Source: a virus. From it: 34,567 nt of DNA. The DNA is taken from IMG/VR virus record IMGVR_UViG_3300009790_000035, positions 1 to 34,567 of that record; one strand, given 5' to 3'. Under the pieces are notes generated by a model, which searched no databases, was not told the DNA's origin, and worked only from the letters and a program-made list of their open reading frames with translations. The position numbers and the translations under genes were made by a program. Shown here in pieces: positions 22,555 through 29,139 of this stretch; the stretch's first letter is position 1; each line of letters starts with the position of its first letter.

Positions 22555-23679
22555 TTAGAATGCAGATGGTGCAGTTGCGCCAACATATAGTTCTACAGCA
22601 GCAGCTGGGTTTAGATAATCTGCTCCCATAGCTAGTCTGCCAAGGATAACATCACCTTGGTAAACCACTGATATGTCTCCTGAAGTTACCTGAACCTGTG
22701 GGCCGATAGCTTCTACAACTCCAGCAGCTTCTTTCTGGAAGATAAGTCCACATGACTTAGCTCCTACTTCAGCAGCTTGACCGTAGTCGTTATTGATACC
22801 AGTCTGAGAACCGTTAGCGTTCTCTAATGCTGTACCGATTCTGTCACCCATGTTTGTTGGGGAGACTTTACCTGTAGTACCCGCGAAAGCAGTACCATAC
22901 TTACCAAGGAACGGAATGTTCATTGACTTGTAGATCTTGATTCCAGCGATTTCTACAACGCCATTACCACCTTGTAATGCAGAACCTTGAACGTCTCTGT
23001 TTACAAGACCGTTTGATGCTACATCGGTTATAAGTGCGTAGTACTGACGTGGGTTTAGAACCGCACATCTTCCAGAGGAACTGACTCCTTTTTCATCTAA
23101 GGCAGCAGCAGCGTCATAGAATGCTGTTACTAAGTTGCCTGCGTTGAAAGCGTCAGAATCATTAGTTGTTGAACCAACTCTGATTTGTGTTCCACCGGGT
23201 TCTTTGAAGTTTGTCTTCGTGATTGGAGAAGCACTTCTTGCTCCTCTTGTGATCGCTCTAAAGATTAAGCGGTCATACTTTTCTGCAAGAGCGTATCCGA
23301 TCTTACGAGAAATTTCTCCTCTCAACTCATAGTGTGCGAGAGTTTCATCTAGCTCATATACGAAAGCACTAGATATTAATAGGTCGTCAACAGTTATAGT
23401 TTTTTCTGCGACTGGAGGTGCGCCGTCACTGTTACCTAAGATGCTGTTTCCGGGAGTATGGAACTCGGCAGTTGTACTACCTGTGTAGATGAACTGAAGA
23501 CTCTTACCGTTCTTCAAAGTTCTCTTCATTACCATGTCACGTGCAATTGCTTCGTGCTGGAAGCCTTTGAACATTTCTCCACTGAACAATTTAAGGTAAA
23601 GGGCGCGAGGATCTGTACCACCATTATTAGCACCCGGACGGGTTAGTGAGGTAGTCAGAGCCGTAGCCTGATGTGCCAT
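22555..23679 (-). CDS. Major capsid protein (gp10-like)
   Basis: This 374-aa protein (T7 gp10A is 344 aa) is the HK97-fold shell protein. Recognisable segments include the LYLKLFSGEMFKGFQHEAIARD opening (about 28-49), the TAEFHTPGNSILGN and DDLLISSAFVYELDETLAHYELR region typical of podoviral capsids, and the late GDVILGRLAMGADYLNPAAAVEL end. It follows a 170-nt structured leader and is followed directly by a strong terminator, which fits an abundantly and separately expressed gene. The SD is weak (AAGAAAA before ATG), so the leader may matter for translation. No frameshifted 10B-type extension is apparent because the terminator follows at once. Confidence 0.96.
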   Translation of the reverse strand: MAHQATALTTSLTRPGANNGGTDPRALYLKLFSGEMFKGFQHEAIARDMVMKRTLKNGKSLQFIYTGSTTAEFHTPGNSILGNSDGAPPVAEKTITVDDLLISSAFVYELDETLAHYELRGEISRKIGYALAEKYDRLIFRAITRGARSASPITKTNFKEPGGTQIRVGSTTNDSDAFNAGNLVTAFYDAAAALDEKGVSSSGRCAVLNPRQYYALITDVASNGLVNRDVQGSALQGGNGVVEIAGIKIYKSMNIPFLGKYGTAFAGTTGKVSPTNMGDRIGTALENANGSQTGINNDYGQAAEVGAKSCGLIFQKEAAGVVEAIGPQVQVTSGDISVVYQGDVILGRLAMGADYLNPAAAVELYVGATAPSAF

Positions 23680-23850
23680 TTTTTCTTAAAAAGTAAGGGT
23701 ATATATTGTCGTCTACGCGCGTAAAAAGTTGCGAGTCTCAGTTAGACTCAGTGATATTGTGGTCTATCCCACCGTCTAGACGGCTAATTGGTATCCGCGT
23801 ACGGGCAAAAAGCCAAATTGAATAGGGAGGACTTGCACCTCCCAGATCGC
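23680..23850 (-). other. Structured leader upstream of capsid gene
   Basis: About 170 nt without a convincing gene, dense in symmetric elements. GGGAGG-TGCAAGT-CCTCCC is a 6-bp hairpin at 23825-23843, and GGC-TTTTT-GCC lies near 23804-23814. CCGTCTAGACGG is a perfect 12-bp palindrome (23772-23783), GAGTCT-CAGTT-AGACTC is a hairpin (23733-23749), and TACGCGCGTA is a palindrome (23714-23723). The position matches the promoter and RNase III-processed leader of T7 gene 10. It may hold the late promoter for the phage RNA polymerase plus RNA processing structures. No promoter consensus was recognised, so the function is inference. Confidence 0.6.
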
Positions 23851-23904
23851 TTAACCGATTATTCTTGTGTAAGCAACGCCACGATATACGAAAGTAACTT
23901 TCAT
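23851..23904 (-). CDS. 17-aa YRG-motif peptide (micro-ORF under riboswitch)
   Basis: The micro-ORF runs from ATG 23904 to TAA 23851 and codes MKVTFVYRGVAYTRIIG. It has the best-placed SD in the region (GGAG at 23914-23911, six bases before the ATG). The MK(L/V)T..YRGV.Y pattern resembles the start of small cyanobacterial proteins with a YRG..Y motif (I believe DUF4278-like). It also fits the short ORFs that follow 'downstream-peptide' RNAs in Prochlorococcus, Synechococcus and their phages. It lies directly after the riboswitch-like RNA and before the capsid leader. The peptide could be functional or could serve as a leader whose translation controls downstream RNA. Being a real translated ORF is likely; its function is unknown. 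Confidence 0.75.
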   Translation of the reverse strand: MKVTFVYRGVAYTRIIG

Positions 23905-23918
23905 GGTTATCTCCATAT

Positions 23919-23971
23919 ACTAAGCCCCGTTCCATGCTTAGTGGTCATGCGTCCCCGAAGGGATGAACGGA
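23919..23971 (-). promoter_or_regulatory. Glutamine-II ('downstream-peptide') riboswitch
   Basis: On the minus strand, P1 is CCGTTC (23970-23965) with GAACGG (23932-23927). P2 is TCCC-TTCG-GGGA (23963-23952). P3 is CATG (23949-23946) with CATG (23936-23933). The P3 loop ACTAAG (23942-23937) pairs perfectly with CTTAGT (23924-23919), forming a pseudoknot that ends four bases before the SD. The arrangement, the CGTTCATCCC...GGGACGCATG core and the short YRG ORF behind it match my recollection of the downstream-peptide motif, shown to bind L-glutamine. Control is probably translational, given the distance to the SD. It starts about 8 nt after the stop of the upstream oxygenase gene. Confidence 0.85.
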
Positions 23972-23978
23972 CGTAGCT

Positions 23979-24560
23979 TTATATTCTGTAGTGACCTACA
24001 TCATTTTTATATTTCATTCCTAAATAAGGAAGAACATTTTTTTGAAAAATATTAAAAGCAATAGTGACTCTAAGTTCATCGGTGTTGTTAGGTTCAACCC
24101 AATGCTTCACATCACTATTGAAATAAGTAAACGTTCCCGGGAAATGATTCTCAGGTACGTCAATTTCAAAGCTTGTACTTATAGGTGGTCCAGATAAAAA
24201 TATATTTCCTGCAAAAGTTTGAGAAACATTATCTGTTAGATGTTCAGGTTGATGCTGATGTGGAGCAATTCCTTCACCTCTTCTAAAAATATTTGCCCAA
24301 CAATTAACAGTACATTTACCAAACAATTCTTTAAATTTTGGGACAAGAATACTACGCATAGGTTCCATATACAAATAGTTAAACAACCTATTCCTTCCTG
24401 TCAGTGAGTCTTCACTTGTACCGGGATAGGTGTCTGGTCCCATTGATTTAACGAAGTCTTCTGTCTCAATAATGTAATCAGATATTTGTTTAGCTTCTTC
24501 TTCAGTAATGAAATGTTTTTCAATACGAAGGATCTCCTTCTGGTTCTTTAAGTTTTTCAC
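23979..24560 (-). CDS. 2OG-Fe(II) oxygenase family protein (copy 2 of 4), GTG start
   Basis: This 193-aa protein has a dioxygenase-like jelly roll. The metal site reads His101-Gln-His103 (APHQHQPEHL) in place of the usual HxD, with distal His153 (VKHWVEP). Arg164 lies 11 residues on (ELRVTIAFN) for 2-oxoglutarate. HxH at the first site occurs in the phage-enriched oxygenase group, so activity is possible but unproven. The start is taken as GTG 24560, because no ATG occurs in frame before residue 40; it overlaps the small membrane protein gene by 41 nt. It ends 8 nt before the glutamine riboswitch. The substrate is unknown. Confidence 0.75.
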   Translation of the reverse strand: MKNLKNQKEILRIEKHFITEEEAKQISDYIIETEDFVKSMGPDTYPGTSEDSLTGRNRLFNYLYMEPMRSILVPKFKELFGKCTVNCWANIFRRGEGIAPHQHQPEHLTDNVSQTFAGNIFLSGPPISTSFEIDVPENHFPGTFTYFNSDVKHWVEPNNTDELRVTIAFNIFQKNVLPYLGMKYKNDVGHYRI

Positions 24561-24741
24561 CTGTAAGTGCTTCTTCTAGTGATTGATATTCTTCTTCTTT
24601 TTTCTCTGGCTCGGGTGCGAAGTAAGTAACCGATGCTTTTAGTTTGTCAGATTGATGTGGCATATTATTCCAGTGGCGCATTACGCCGAACATAATAAAA
24701 AAGTTTGTAATTAATGTTGTAAATGTGAGAAAATTTTTCAA
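24520..24741 (-). CDS. Small single-pass membrane protein between two oxygenases, TTG start
   Basis: This 73-aa protein starts at TTG 24741, inside a TTGA overlap with the stop of the upstream oxygenase. The N-terminus is hydrophobic (FLTFTTLITNFFIMFGVM, residues 4-21), followed by a polar, charged domain with an acidic Glu/Lys-rich end (EPEKKEEEYQSLEEALTGEK). Topology suggests a membrane anchor with a soluble tail. It has no cysteine for lipidation. It sits in the psbA-oxygenase cassette, so it may localise or regulate those enzymes, or act at the thylakoid or plasma membrane. That is inference from context only; I do not recognise a family. Confidence 0.65.
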   Translation of the reverse strand: MKNFLTFTTLITNFFIMFGVMRHWNNMPHQSDKLKASVTYFAPEPEKKEEEYQSLEEALTGEKLKEPEGDPSY

Positions 24742-25340
24742 TTCATTTTACGAACGTTGAAGCTTAGAGACACTCGATACCCATCGACTCTGTTAGGAGA
24801 CTTAGGTACCAAGTGAGTTAAGTTGCTTGGAAATATAATTAGATCCCCTTCTTCAATATCTAATATGAACTGTGAATTTTGATCCCATATTCCATTATTA
24901 ATTGTTATTCCCTGTGCACTACAAACAAAACCATAGGTATTGTTGTCGCGTACAAAGATAGCAGGATAGTCTAGATCCTTATCAAAGTTAATATAGTAAA
25001 TTCCAGATAATATATTTGGCATATGATTATGAGCTTCTTGGTACATCCCGGGGGAGTGTACATTAAACCAAGTTTCTAGTTCATAATTGAAAGGATCAAA
25101 GTTATAATAATCCAGTACTTTTTTACACTCTCTTTCAATCTGTGGTATCACATAGCTTTTGCTATTTTCATATACTTCCTCTTGCCACGTATTGCAGTAC
25201 ACTGCCCACGGTGCTTTGTGAGTATCGTTATTACGAAAAGATTTAATTAGCTTTGGTAGTACAAGTCTCTTATAACTTTGATGATTTTCTATTTTGCTGT
25301 GATATATCGGATTACTAAATAGGGGGATAAATTTATTCAA
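24738..25340 (-). CDS. 2OG-Fe(II) oxygenase family protein (copy 3 of 4), TTG start
   Basis: This 200-aa protein is of the phage/cyanobacterial 'putative 2OG-Fe(II) oxygenase' type. It reads [28 protein letters not shown], with His104-Asn-His106 as first metal ligands. LTHLVP contributes distal His176, and YRVSLSFNV contributes Arg189. The SGIYY strand after the HxH is typical of this group. The start is TTG 25340, overlapping the TGA of psbA, with no obvious SD, so expression probably depends on coupling to psbA. Co-location with psbA and hli suggests activity during light-driven infection, but the substrate is unknown. Confidence 0.82.
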
Positions 25341-26419
25341 GCAATTTGTGGTGCTGTTAAAGCAATTTGTGTGGATTCACTTGAAGCTAAATCAAGTGGG
25401 AAGTTGTGTGCGTTTCTTTCGTGCATAACTTCAAAGCCAAGGTTCTGTCTATTAACAATGTCAGCCCATGTAGGGATAACTTTGCCATTAGTATCAACAA
25501 CTGATTGGTTAAAGTTAAAGCCGTTAAGGTTAAATGCCATAGTGCATATACCCATAGATGTCAGCCATATGCCAACAACCGGCCAAGTACCAAGAAAGAA
25601 ATGAAGAGCACGGCTATTATTAAATGACGCATATTGAAAAATCAGTCTCCCAAAGTACCCGTGTGCAGCGACAATATTATATGTCTCTTCATCTTGCCCA
25701 AATTTATAGCCATAGTTCTGCGATACTTCGTCTGTCGTTTCTTTAACAAGTGAGGAAGTAACCAGACTTCCGTGCATAGCAGCGAAAAGAGCTCCACCGA
25801 ATACCCCAGCAACACCAGCCATATGGAATGGGTGCATGAGGATATTATGCTCGGCTTGGAATACGAACATAAAGTTAAAAGTACCAGAGATACCCAAAGG
25901 CATACCATCACTGAAACTCCCTTGTCCGAAAGGGTAAACTAAGAACACTGCGAGAGCTGCGGATAGTGGTGCTGTGTAAGCAATAAATATCCATGGTCTC
26001 ATTCCTAGTCTGTATGAAAGTTCCCACTGTCTCCCTGCATATGCTGCTACTCCTATTAAGAAGTGGAAGATAATGAGTTGATATGGTCCGCCATTGTATA
26101 GCCATTCGTCTAAAGTTCCGGCTTCCCATATCGGATAAAAGTGCAGTCCTATTGCATTGGAGCTTGGAACTACTGCTCCTGATATTATGTTGTTTCCGTA
26201 CAACAACGAGCCTGATACTGGCTCACGTATGCCATCTATATCAACAGGCGGTGCTGCGATAAAGGCGAGAATAAAACATGTAGTAGCTGCTAGTAAACAA
26301 GGGATCATTAACACACCAAACCAACCTACATATAGGCGGTTCTCTGTGCTAGTAACCCACTCGCAAAACCTTTGCCAATTACTACTGGTGCTTTCTCTTG
26401 TTAGTGAGATTGCTGCCAT
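25337..26419 (-). CDS. psbA: Photosystem II D1 protein
   Basis: This is full-length D1 (360 aa), without intron or disruption. Ligands are intact with a one-residue offset from the standard numbering: Tyr162 (YZ), Asp171, Glu190, His191, His199, His333, Glu334, His338 and Asp343. Ala345 is the C-terminal processing point, followed by a normal extension ([15 protein letters not shown]). Position 131 (standard 130) is Gln, the form usually associated with low-light D1. The [16 protein letters not shown] end is typical of marine picocyanobacteria and their phages. Phage D1 replaces the fast-turning-over host protein so photosynthesis continues during infection. The ATG overlaps the hli stop (TAATG), so both are translated together. 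Confidence 0.99.
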
Positions 26420-26610
26420 TAAAATATACCGGGGATAATTTGACCGGTTGTTACGTATGCGCCAACGGCTGCTACGAAGCCAAGCATTGCTGCCCAGCCA
26501 TTAAATCTTTCTGCTTCTGGTGTCATAATTGGTTGTTTAGGAAGAACCTCGATAGGAGGTTCATAAGGGTATTCATTATCGAACAGGGTATCTAAGTCTT
26601 TTGTTTTCAT
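26419..26610 (-). CDS. hli: High-light-inducible protein
   Basis: This 63-aa protein has a hydrophilic N-terminus and one transmembrane helix carrying the chlorophyll-binding motif [16 protein letters not shown] (about residues 33-48). It is followed by the TGQIIPGIF ending that marks the marine phage and Prochlorococcus hli group. HLIPs protect photosystem II and its repair intermediates from excess light. The gene lies immediately upstream of psbA with one-base overlaps at both ends, so photoprotection and D1 supply are made together. The place between scaffold and capsid is the same as in P-SSP7-type podoviruses. Confidence 0.97.
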
Positions 26611-26759
26611 TACATCCCTGCATCTTTCATTGCTTGTTCAAGCTGTGAATAGTGTTTCTTTTTAGCCTTCCCGGTCATAATGTCATTTTTCATTGTGTCC
26701 CAAAGAGTTGGCTTCTTCTTTTTCTTCGTCTTCAGCTTGTCTTTATTAGAAGTTGACAT
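26610..26759 (-). CDS. 49-aa basic small protein
   Basis: This short gene runs from ATG 26759 to TAA 26610. The product is very basic at its N-terminus (DKLKTKKKKKPTLWD), then helical (TMKNDIMTGKAKKKHYSQLEQAMKDAGM). It begins inside the last codons of the scaffold gene and ends in a TAATG overlap with hli, so it bridges head morphogenesis and the photosynthesis cassette. Composition suggests nucleic-acid or acidic-surface binding. I do not recognise a family and infer nothing about function. The strict coupling makes translation likely. Confidence 0.75.
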   Translation of the reverse strand: MSTSNKDKLKTKKKKKPTLWDTMKNDIMTGKAKKKHYSQLEQAMKDAGM

Positions 26760-27537
26760 TGGATCTATCTAGTTTGTCTATTACGTCCTGTCTGTATGCA
26801 GGATCTTTGTCATACCTAGGATCACCAACAGCTGCGACTAATTCAGCTTGACTGCGGAATACTTCTCCGCTTGACTTAGCTGGTTTGCCTTGTAAGGTTG
26901 TACCTTCATAGCCATTAGCTCCTTCGTATTGAGCTTTTAAACCAGCCACTGCAAGTTTGATCATCTCAACATTGCCTGTCTGGACTACGCCATCAAAGGC
27001 ATCGGTTTGTGTCTTAGATAAGTTCTGTCCAGCCCAAGACACAATTTGGTTGTATTGCTGAACACCTCCTACGGAGTTTTGTACTTGATTAACTTGTGCG
27101 TCAGACATGTCAGCAGCTTGTTGTTGCTGCGGAGCATTTTTTATTGACTGAACATACGCATTAACTAAGTCCTTACTACTCATAGAGGAGAACTTCTCAA
27201 TCGTTTCATCAGATAAAGAGTTCTCATTGCCGTAGTACTCAGCAGATGCTTCTGCAATCAGAGACATTGCTGGGCTCTCTTCGGCTTTAGGTTCTTCGGT
27301 TACTTCTTGGGTTTCTTGTTCCCCTTCTTGTACCCCATCTGAATCTCCTAATTTCTTTTGTAATTCAAGGTAAGCATTCTCTAAGTCTTGTGGATTCTTA
27401 TACTTACCAGCTAGTAGCCCTTCTTGTTCTGCTACTAATTCTTCACCCACCTTAAGGGAGTCCTGCTCTTCTGGAGTAAGGACTTCCGTTTGTTCAGGTG
27501 CGTCACTAATTGTAAATGTTTGATTTTCTTCTGCCAT
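26746..27537 (-). CDS. Scaffolding/capsid assembly protein (gp9-like)
   Basis: This 263-aa protein (T7 gp9 is 307 aa) is encoded between portal and capsid. It is acidic in its first half (TEVLTPEEQDSLKVGEELVAEQEG, then QEGEQETQEVTEEPKAEE). It contains the LLAGKYKNPQDLENAYLELQKKLG pattern that is typical of podoviral scaffold proteins. The C-terminal part is helical and ends VIDKLDRSNVNF. Scaffold proteins shape the procapsid and leave before DNA fills it. The start follows the portal stop directly (TAA then ATG). Confidence 0.92.
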   Translation of the reverse strand: MAEENQTFTISDAPEQTEVLTPEEQDSLKVGEELVAEQEGLLAGKYKNPQDLENAYLELQKKLGDSDGVQEGEQETQEVTEEPKAEESPAMSLIAEASAEYYGNENSLSDETIEKFSSMSSKDLVNAYVQSIKNAPQQQQAADMSDAQVNQVQNSVGGVQQYNQIVSWAGQNLSKTQTDAFDGVVQTGNVEMIKLAVAGLKAQYEGANGYEGTTLQGKPAKSSGEVFRSQAELVAAVGDPRYDKDPAYRQDVIDKLDRSNVNF

Positions 27538-29139
27538 TTATTCTGTTGGTGGTGGTGCCTGTTCATCAGCTACCATTTGTTGTTGCATCTCAGCAGCAAG
27601 CTGTGGATTCTTTTGTGGGTCCATCATTGGAGTACCAGCTAATTGTCCTGCTTGATCTAGTAAAGATTTCTGAGTTGCTTGAGCTTGCTGTTGTTGCATC
27701 TCTTGAGCCATCTGCTCTTGAGTCTTAACAAGGTTCAAGATATCAATACCTTGAGCAGCAGCTAACCTCTTGATTGCTTCTAGTGGCTGTACATATTTCA
27801 TCAAAGCTTCTGGTCCAAGGGTCTGTGCAATAGTCCCTATGAACTGGGTCAATGATTCTCTATCTTGTCCTCTACCCAAAGCATTTATACCAGCTACGAT
27901 TGTAGGTCTGACTATATCTTTAGGTAGTTTTGGTATTTGATTACTTCTCTGTAAAACTAATAGAGTTCTGTTGAGATAAGGTATCAAGAACTCAACAGTT
28001 AATAGTGAAAAGATTCCACCTAGCTGTTGCTCTAGTTCCAACTGAGTAAGGCGTACCTCCTCTGCTGTTACCCTCTCTGCATTCCTTACATTCATAACAA
28101 GGAAGTTTTCTTTTAGTCGTCTTTCAATACCGACAGCCATTCTTTCTGCTGTTGCAAAATCTGCTGTCTTACCTACTTGAACGACCTGTACATCCTCAGC
28201 TCGTCCTTGGACGATTGCACCATTACCAGCTTTAGCAATGGTTTGTGGTTTGGTTGTACTTGATGGGGATACCAGAAATATAACTTTGGCTGCTGCTGCA
28301 CTACCTTCAACGAGAGCTTGAGATAATCCTTCGAGAGTTTTTAAATCTCCCATGAACTCCTCTACTCTTCCTCTTCCATAGTCTTCGCCATCAACAGTAT
28401 TGAATCTTAAAACTAACCAAGGACTAGCATCTTTAGGTGCAGTGCTTTTGCTCTTAGGTAGAACCTTACCAAATACTTCTTGGTGCCACTGCCATCTGCC
28501 ATCTACTAATTTGACATATGTATATACTTCTACGTCATCTTTGTCACTGTTCTGAGTTTCATCAACAACTGTGTTGGGAACCTCTTCAGGGATATCAAAC
28601 TCTAATACCTTTCTACTGATTAATTCTTTAGTGACTATCTCTAAAACGTTACCGTTACCATCTCGGTTAACGACATACCTTGAAAGAGGGAAGGTCTTTA
28701 GACCATCTTTGCCCATAAAAATTAGTGCATTGCCACCAACAATTAAATGTTTAAGTGCCTGATGAATAGTCACCCTGTCACTTGACGCAGCAATGTAGTC
28801 CATGATCATCTTCTCAATCTTGGAGAAAGATAAATCAAGTTCTCCCTTTATTTTTGGGTCATCTTGAAATTCGCCTAGCTTGTCTTCTCTTACTTGGAGT
28901 TTGAAGAAGCTTGTCTGTGGAGGTAGGACAGCCAACATAAGTTTGGCTGCCAACGTCACACAGCAGGAAGCTCCTACACTTTGCCAAGGTACTCTTAAGG
29001 TTTCGTGGCTTGGTTTTGACGATGTGTCGTCTTGTATAAGGTACGGCAACGTGAGTTCTGAACATTCAACTGCTTTATCTAAGAACTGTCTTCGATCATT
29101 GCTTAGTTGATTGTATCTTTCACGTGCTGATGTCTTCAA
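27538..29139 (-). CDS. Portal protein / head-tail connector (gp8-like), TTG start
   Basis: This 533-aa protein is almost the length of T7 gp8 (536 aa). Recognisable blocks include RYNQLSNDRRQFLDKAVECSELTLPYL at the start, the WQSVGASCCVTLAAKLMLAVLPPQTSFFKL region (about residues 50-80), and LVEGSAAAAKVIFLVSPS. MNVRNAERVTAEEVRLTQLELEQQLGGIFSLL is the central block that lies near the channel. The C-terminus is Gln-rich (MQQQQAQATQ) and low in complexity. Twelve copies should form the DNA entry and exit ring. The start is TTG 29139 in a TTGA overlap with the proline-rich gene; there is no ATG nearby in frame. Confidence 0.96.
   Translation of the reverse strand: MKTSARERYNQLSNDRRQFLDKAVECSELTLPYLIQDDTSSKPSHETLRVPWQSVGASCCVTLAAKLMLAVLPPQTSFFKLQVREDKLGEFQDDPKIKGELDLSFSKIEKMIMDYIAASSDRVTIHQALKHLIVGGNALIFMGKDGLKTFPLSRYVVNRDGNGNVLEIVTKELISRKVLEFDIPEEVPNTVVDETQNSDKDDVEVYTYVKLVDGRWQWHQEVFGKVLPKSKSTAPKDASPWLVLRFNTVDGEDYGRGRVEEFMGDLKTLEGLSQALVEGSAAAAKVIFLVSPSSTTKPQTIAKAGNGAIVQGRAEDVQVVQVGKTADFATAERMAVGIERRLKENFLVMNVRNAERVTAEEVRLTQLELEQQLGGIFSLLTVEFLIPYLNRTLLVLQRSNQIPKLPKDIVRPTIVAGINALGRGQDRESLTQFIGTIAQTLGPEALMKYVQPLEAIKRLAAAQGIDILNLVKTQEQMAQEMQQQQAQATQKSLLDQAGQLAGTPMMDPQKNPQLAAEMQQQMVADEQAPPPTE

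Follow-up and report, generated by a model that had tools for sequence, protein, structure and literature searches.

Glutamine-II is a known riboswitch class, and one phage example of this motif, also called Downstream-peptide, was previously known. Type-2 glutamine riboswitches have been linked to DUF4278 genes, whose expression is activated on glutamine, and the host DUF4278 proteins encoded behind them have no assigned function (reviewed in PMC6316151). The original description of the host RNA Yfr6 was of a long RNA that contains a frame of 33 aa (PMC1242208, PMC2518516). In Synechocystis, gifB encodes the glutamine synthetase inactivating factor IF17, whose N-terminus is DUF4278 and is reported to be dispensable for glutamine synthetase inhibition (PMC6316151). 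Glutamine aptamers have also been described in other marine phages, namely T4-like cyanophages and the OM43 phage Melnitz (PMC9602691, PMC9964418, PMC9004378). The podovirus element described here is a well-supported further member of the class, and a literature search found no description of the podovirus YRG cassette. New here are the strict linkage of aptamer and peptide across podoviruses, the lead to DUF4278 and the evidence against control of the capsid gene.

The stretch of DNA that we analysed, hereafter the window, is 34,567 nucleotides long and comes from a T7-like cyanophage, a virus of marine cyanobacteria. The genes that surround the element are as follows.

27538-29139: portal
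26746-27537: scaffold
26419-26610: hli-like, named from its position and from annotated relatives
25337-26419: psbA
23979-24560 and 24738-25340: a pair of neighbouring 2OG-Fe(II) oxygenase-like genes that separate psbA from the riboswitch
22555-23679: major capsid protein

Like the picocyanobacterial RF01704 RNAs, the phage copy matches the full-length model, has two helices and a pseudoknot and stands before a very short motif-bearing ORF. In contrast to them, its carrier is a lytic podovirus, where it stands with psbA-region genes on one side and the capsid gene on the other, and the ORF has shrunk to 13-20 codons in many phage members. Yfr6 and the Prochlorococcus riboswitch-DUF4278 gene PMM1846 share with it the aptamer class and a short ORF with a YRG/YRR motif, whereas the host proteins are 33-57 aa long, one host type having three YR motifs, and the phage peptide has one YRG unit. 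What it would share with gifB is a small DUF4278 protein that acts in nitrogen control and is gated by glutamine (PMC6316151); the aptamer there is type 1, however, and the part of IF17 that inhibits glutamine synthetase is missing from the phage peptide. Melnitz differs in having a glnA-type motif, located at its tmRNA gene.

A cmscan search of the whole window returned a single Rfam match, RF01704 (Glutamine-II), at 23972-23919 on the minus strand, covering the full model (1-60) with 46.8 bits against a curated cut-off of 33 bits. At an E value of 1.6e-8 this is far beyond chance. The glutamine-II identity that the first-pass annotation had put forward is borne out by this match, and the window element is a genuine Glutamine-II class aptamer, for which glutamine binding is predicted. 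The RNA is 54 bases long and starts a few bases past the stop of the 2OG-Fe(II) oxygenase-like gene at 23979-24560. Its parts, and those of the ORF behind it, are listed in 5' to 3' order of the RNA, with counts over relatives being among the matches listed.

23919-23972, minus: Glutamine-II (type 2 glutamine) riboswitch aptamer, RF01704, with homologues in the same place in isolates and contigs
23965-23970, minus: 5' strand of the pseudoknot, CCGTTC, partner 23932-23927; CGTTC core in 57/57 relatives
23952-23963, minus: first hairpin, TCCC-UUCG-GGGA (stems 23963-23960/23955-23952), base pair conserved
23936-23942, minus: 5' arm of the second helix, ACTAAGC, from pairing and pair types in relatives
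23927-23932, minus: 3' strand of the pseudoknot, GAACGG; GAACG in 57/57 relatives
23919-23925, minus: 3' arm of the second helix, GCTTAGT, with its end four bases 5' of GGAG, from the same pairing data as the 5' arm
23911-23914, minus: Shine-Dalgarno GGAG, six bases 5' of the ATG, read from the sequence and the commonest among relatives; predicted hairpin partner, codons 2-8
23851-23904, minus: ORF of the YRG microprotein, MKVTFVYRGVAYTRIIG, 17 codons and stop (ATG 23904-23902, TAA ending 23851), from YRG..Y kept in relatives and co-occurrence with the aptamer

All sequence features described in the first-pass annotation, that is CCGTTC/GAACGG, the UUCG hairpin, GGAG and the 17-codon ORF on the minus strand, are present, but its helix labels need revision. 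The strands that it called P1 are real and form the pseudoknot of the Rfam model, and its six-base "pseudoknot" is a real pairing that corresponds to the second helix, with seven pairs here. A third helix that it had drawn, CATG/CATG, falls away: it lies outside the Rfam model, and because it is almost invariant and is broken in 6/57 relatives, among the matches listed, covariation gives it no support. The stability of the aptamer region in thermodynamic folding is ordinary (z 0.36 and -0.03), so that the evidence for the element is the covariance model together with the comparative data.

The isolates P-SSP7, P-SSP2, P-GSP1, S-RIP2, NATL2A-133, S-TIP37 and S-TIP28 carry the cassette in the interval from the psbA/scaffold region to the capsid gene, and many IMG/VR contigs carry it at the same position. 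In a covariance-model search of 50 related records, 15 scored above the RF01704 cut-off, including all seven isolate podophages, and Syn5 gave no RF01704 match. We retrieved 80 IMG/VR loci via the capsid protein and more via a scan for the aptamer pattern, whose abundance in genomes and viral contigs is a lower bound. Among the matches listed there were at least 57 distinct podovirus-type aptamers (the 57 listed relatives), collected without requiring the peptide. Pairing in their second helix extends to 98.2% of cells; 2000 shuffles averaged 76.0% and never exceeded 79.4%, all counts being uncorrected for kinship. Each of its pairs 2-7 shows three to six standard pair types, and one pair occurs in the compensatory forms G-C, C-G, U-A and A-U. 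The covariation anticipated for the RNA is thus present in what had been called the pseudoknot, but not in the former P1, whose core is kept in all 57 listed relatives and, being invariant, offers no covariation of its own. The outermost pair of the pseudoknot is C-G in 43 of the 57 listed relatives, and the first-hairpin base pair is T-A in 56 and G-C in one. Three podovirus aptamers (L025, L030 and L031) have a long insertion in the first hairpin and score 27-29 bits, just under the Rfam cut-off; in L025 and L031 a YRG ORF, read directly, still lies downstream.

An ORF with YRG..Y follows every one of the 57 listed relatives. Within Y-R-G-x-x-Y the residues Y, R, G and Y never change over 41 distinct nucleotide cores, whereas the synonymous codons that encode them do, the arginine codon being CGT in 26, CGC in 11, CGG in 2, AGA in 1 and CGA in 1. 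Synechococcus phages carry in-frame N-terminal extensions of the peptide of 10-20 residues. Of the 67 capsid loci whose upstream sequence was long enough, 48 had both the aptamer and the YRG ORF and 19 had neither; none was discordant. The earlier reading therefore holds in that the phage aptamer comes with a genuine coding sequence for a 17-aa YRG peptide, and the unit of selection is the aptamer plus the microprotein, which many related viruses inherit together. The absence of the cassette from 19/67 loci means that it is dispensable in some lineages, as would be expected of a decayed or hitch-hiking host fragment that is functionless in the phage; we consider this extremely improbable, however, given the compensatory pairs, the invariant pseudoknot core and the coding constraint across genera.

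The Shine-Dalgarno strand of the short-peptide class, which includes the window, is predicted to pair with codons 2-8 around a loop that contains the start codon. Against synonymous shuffles the hairpin comes out stronger, at a mean z of -1.06 and with 94% of values below zero, and the pairing of the Shine-Dalgarno with its cognate codons is -13.5 kcal/mol versus -10.5 kcal/mol with the codons of other phages. The outer part of the hairpin shares sequence with the 3' arm of the second helix. The long-peptide class has no consistent Shine-Dalgarno hairpin (mean z -0.07 against synonymous shuffles). A simple model in which formation of the second helix frees the Shine-Dalgarno found no support in constrained folding: when this helix was enforced in a nearest-neighbour model of 41 short-class loci, the mean unpaired value of the Shine-Dalgarno went only from 0.20 to 0.24.

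The location of the YRG codons within this predicted hairpin bears on the idea that the RNA itself is the product, as a Yfr6-like small RNA, or that the peptide is a cis-only leader whose amino-acid sequence has no partner. The codons could in principle be conserved at the RNA level, and Yfr6 itself entered the literature as a long RNA, one that contains a 33-aa frame (PMC1242208, PMC2518516). We nevertheless find this idea unlikely: synonymous codons vary while Y, R, G and Y stay fixed, some phages have in-frame extensions of 10-20 codons, and YRG is invariant in the long class although the hairpin is inconsistent there.

If the peptide is taken as a protein, its closest affinity appears to be with DUF4278. 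The longer phage peptides have Pfam DUF4278 (PF14105) as their only shared match, with a sub-threshold best value of 3.3e-4 and scores of at most 21.4 bits among relatives versus a gathering score of 25.3. A 21-aa version of the window peptide gave no DUF4278 match in Pfam, the peptide being too short for the Pfam threshold. The gathering score is passed by a Prochlorococcus protein of 57 aa whose gene follows an aptamer of this class (42.9 bits) and by a phage double-YRG protein (29.4 bits). The window peptide may be derived from DUF4278 or work alike. It has two arginines and, by its length, no IF7-like part, and since the DUF4278 part of IF17 is dispensable for the inhibition (PMC6316151), glutamine synthetase inhibition by the phage peptide is not implied.

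We think it likely that T7-like cyanophages took up a type-2 glutamine riboswitch with a minimal host-type YRG (DUF4278-like) microprotein, that glutamine raises the translation of this microprotein and that the peptide acts on host nitrogen control. As glutamine goes up in the infected cell, the aptamer would fold via its second helix and pseudoknot, and the folded aptamer would allow more microprotein to be translated, an ON direction suggested by the literature on host type-2 copies. In the short-peptide phages the Shine-Dalgarno would lie in its predicted hairpin with the YRG codons, the outer part of which overlaps the second helix. The target would most likely be the control of nitrogen assimilation in which the host's own DUF4278 proteins serve, and the peptide may act on glutamine synthetase regulation. 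If the peptide is made on demand at rising glutamine, very common ocean viruses would sense host nitrogen via a 54-base RNA, and their answer to the nitrogen state of the host would be a peptide of about 17 residues. Because nitrogen is limiting over large parts of the surface ocean, a control point of this kind would matter for virus production in those waters. The phage version cuts the DUF4278 protein to one YRG unit, so that the core motif and its partner become open to direct tests.

Besides control of the tiny peptide, the first-pass annotation had offered a different role, in which the riboswitch acts on the capsid gene at the start of head production. Glutamine would then alter how the capsid leader is translated or the continuity of its transcript, and head production would track host nitrogen. 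The arrangement in the window and many relatives is compatible with this, as the cassette ends about 170-300 bases 5' of the capsid ATG with two terminator-like hairpins between. The proximity breaks down at five loci, however, where extra genes or 0.8-1.2 kb intervene: NATL2A-133 has four annotated genes between cassette and capsid gene, and L009, L045, L051 and L063 have 845-922 bases. The cassette is missing altogether from the 19 loci mentioned above, and those examined keep the same structured capsid leader RNA. Moreover, directly 3' of the aptamer there is a Shine-Dalgarno and an ORF, and no terminator. We regard capsid control as very unlikely; the cassette is a neighbour of the capsid gene and probably not its regulator. 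Two RNA features lie between them.

23757-23814: structured capsid leader RNA, with covariation in T7-like cyanophages
23825-23843: hairpin GGGAGG-TGCAAGT-CCTCCC, tRNA T-arm-like, ahead of the capsid leader RNA

The outer helix, inner hairpin and last hairpin of the leader are paired at almost every position in 64/64 distinct sequences, and compensatory changes occur. The leader matched no Rfam family, a weak opposite-strand match to a frameshift element being below the cut-off. The T-arm-like hairpin is one of two that are interchangeable, the alternative in relatives having the loop CACCTCAGAGTCGGA and different stems, and ARAGORN found no tRNA gene at this place.

Glutamine-II motifs are also found in T4-like cyanophages, where in our viral-contig pattern scan, among the matches listed, they are often tandem and lie upstream of double-YRG DUF4278 proteins. 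It is possible, if doubtful, that two cyanophage groups turned the host glutamine-riboswitch/DUF4278 pair into a viral nitrogen-control cassette, with the microprotein acting on host glutamine assimilation, and that the T4-like phages placed a gene inside the hairpin loop of the second aptamer, its last codons serving as an aptamer strand. In at least 40 distinct cases the loop of an aptamer's first hairpin, mostly that of the second aptamer, holds an ORF, in the arrangement CGTTCATCC-ATG...ORF...GGACGCA...GGAACGG. Carriers are L090 (1998-2240), L091, L092 and at least about 37 IMG/VR contigs, and in three annotated T4-like genomes the nested ORF lies between nrdB and talC. The usual nested ORF is PHROG 504, and the 3' aptamer strand encodes its C-terminal residues WDAND; in two nested cases a U-A base pair is changed to C-G with a coupled protein change from WDAND to WGAND. 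A 251-base query across the nested arrangement matched 412 phage records.
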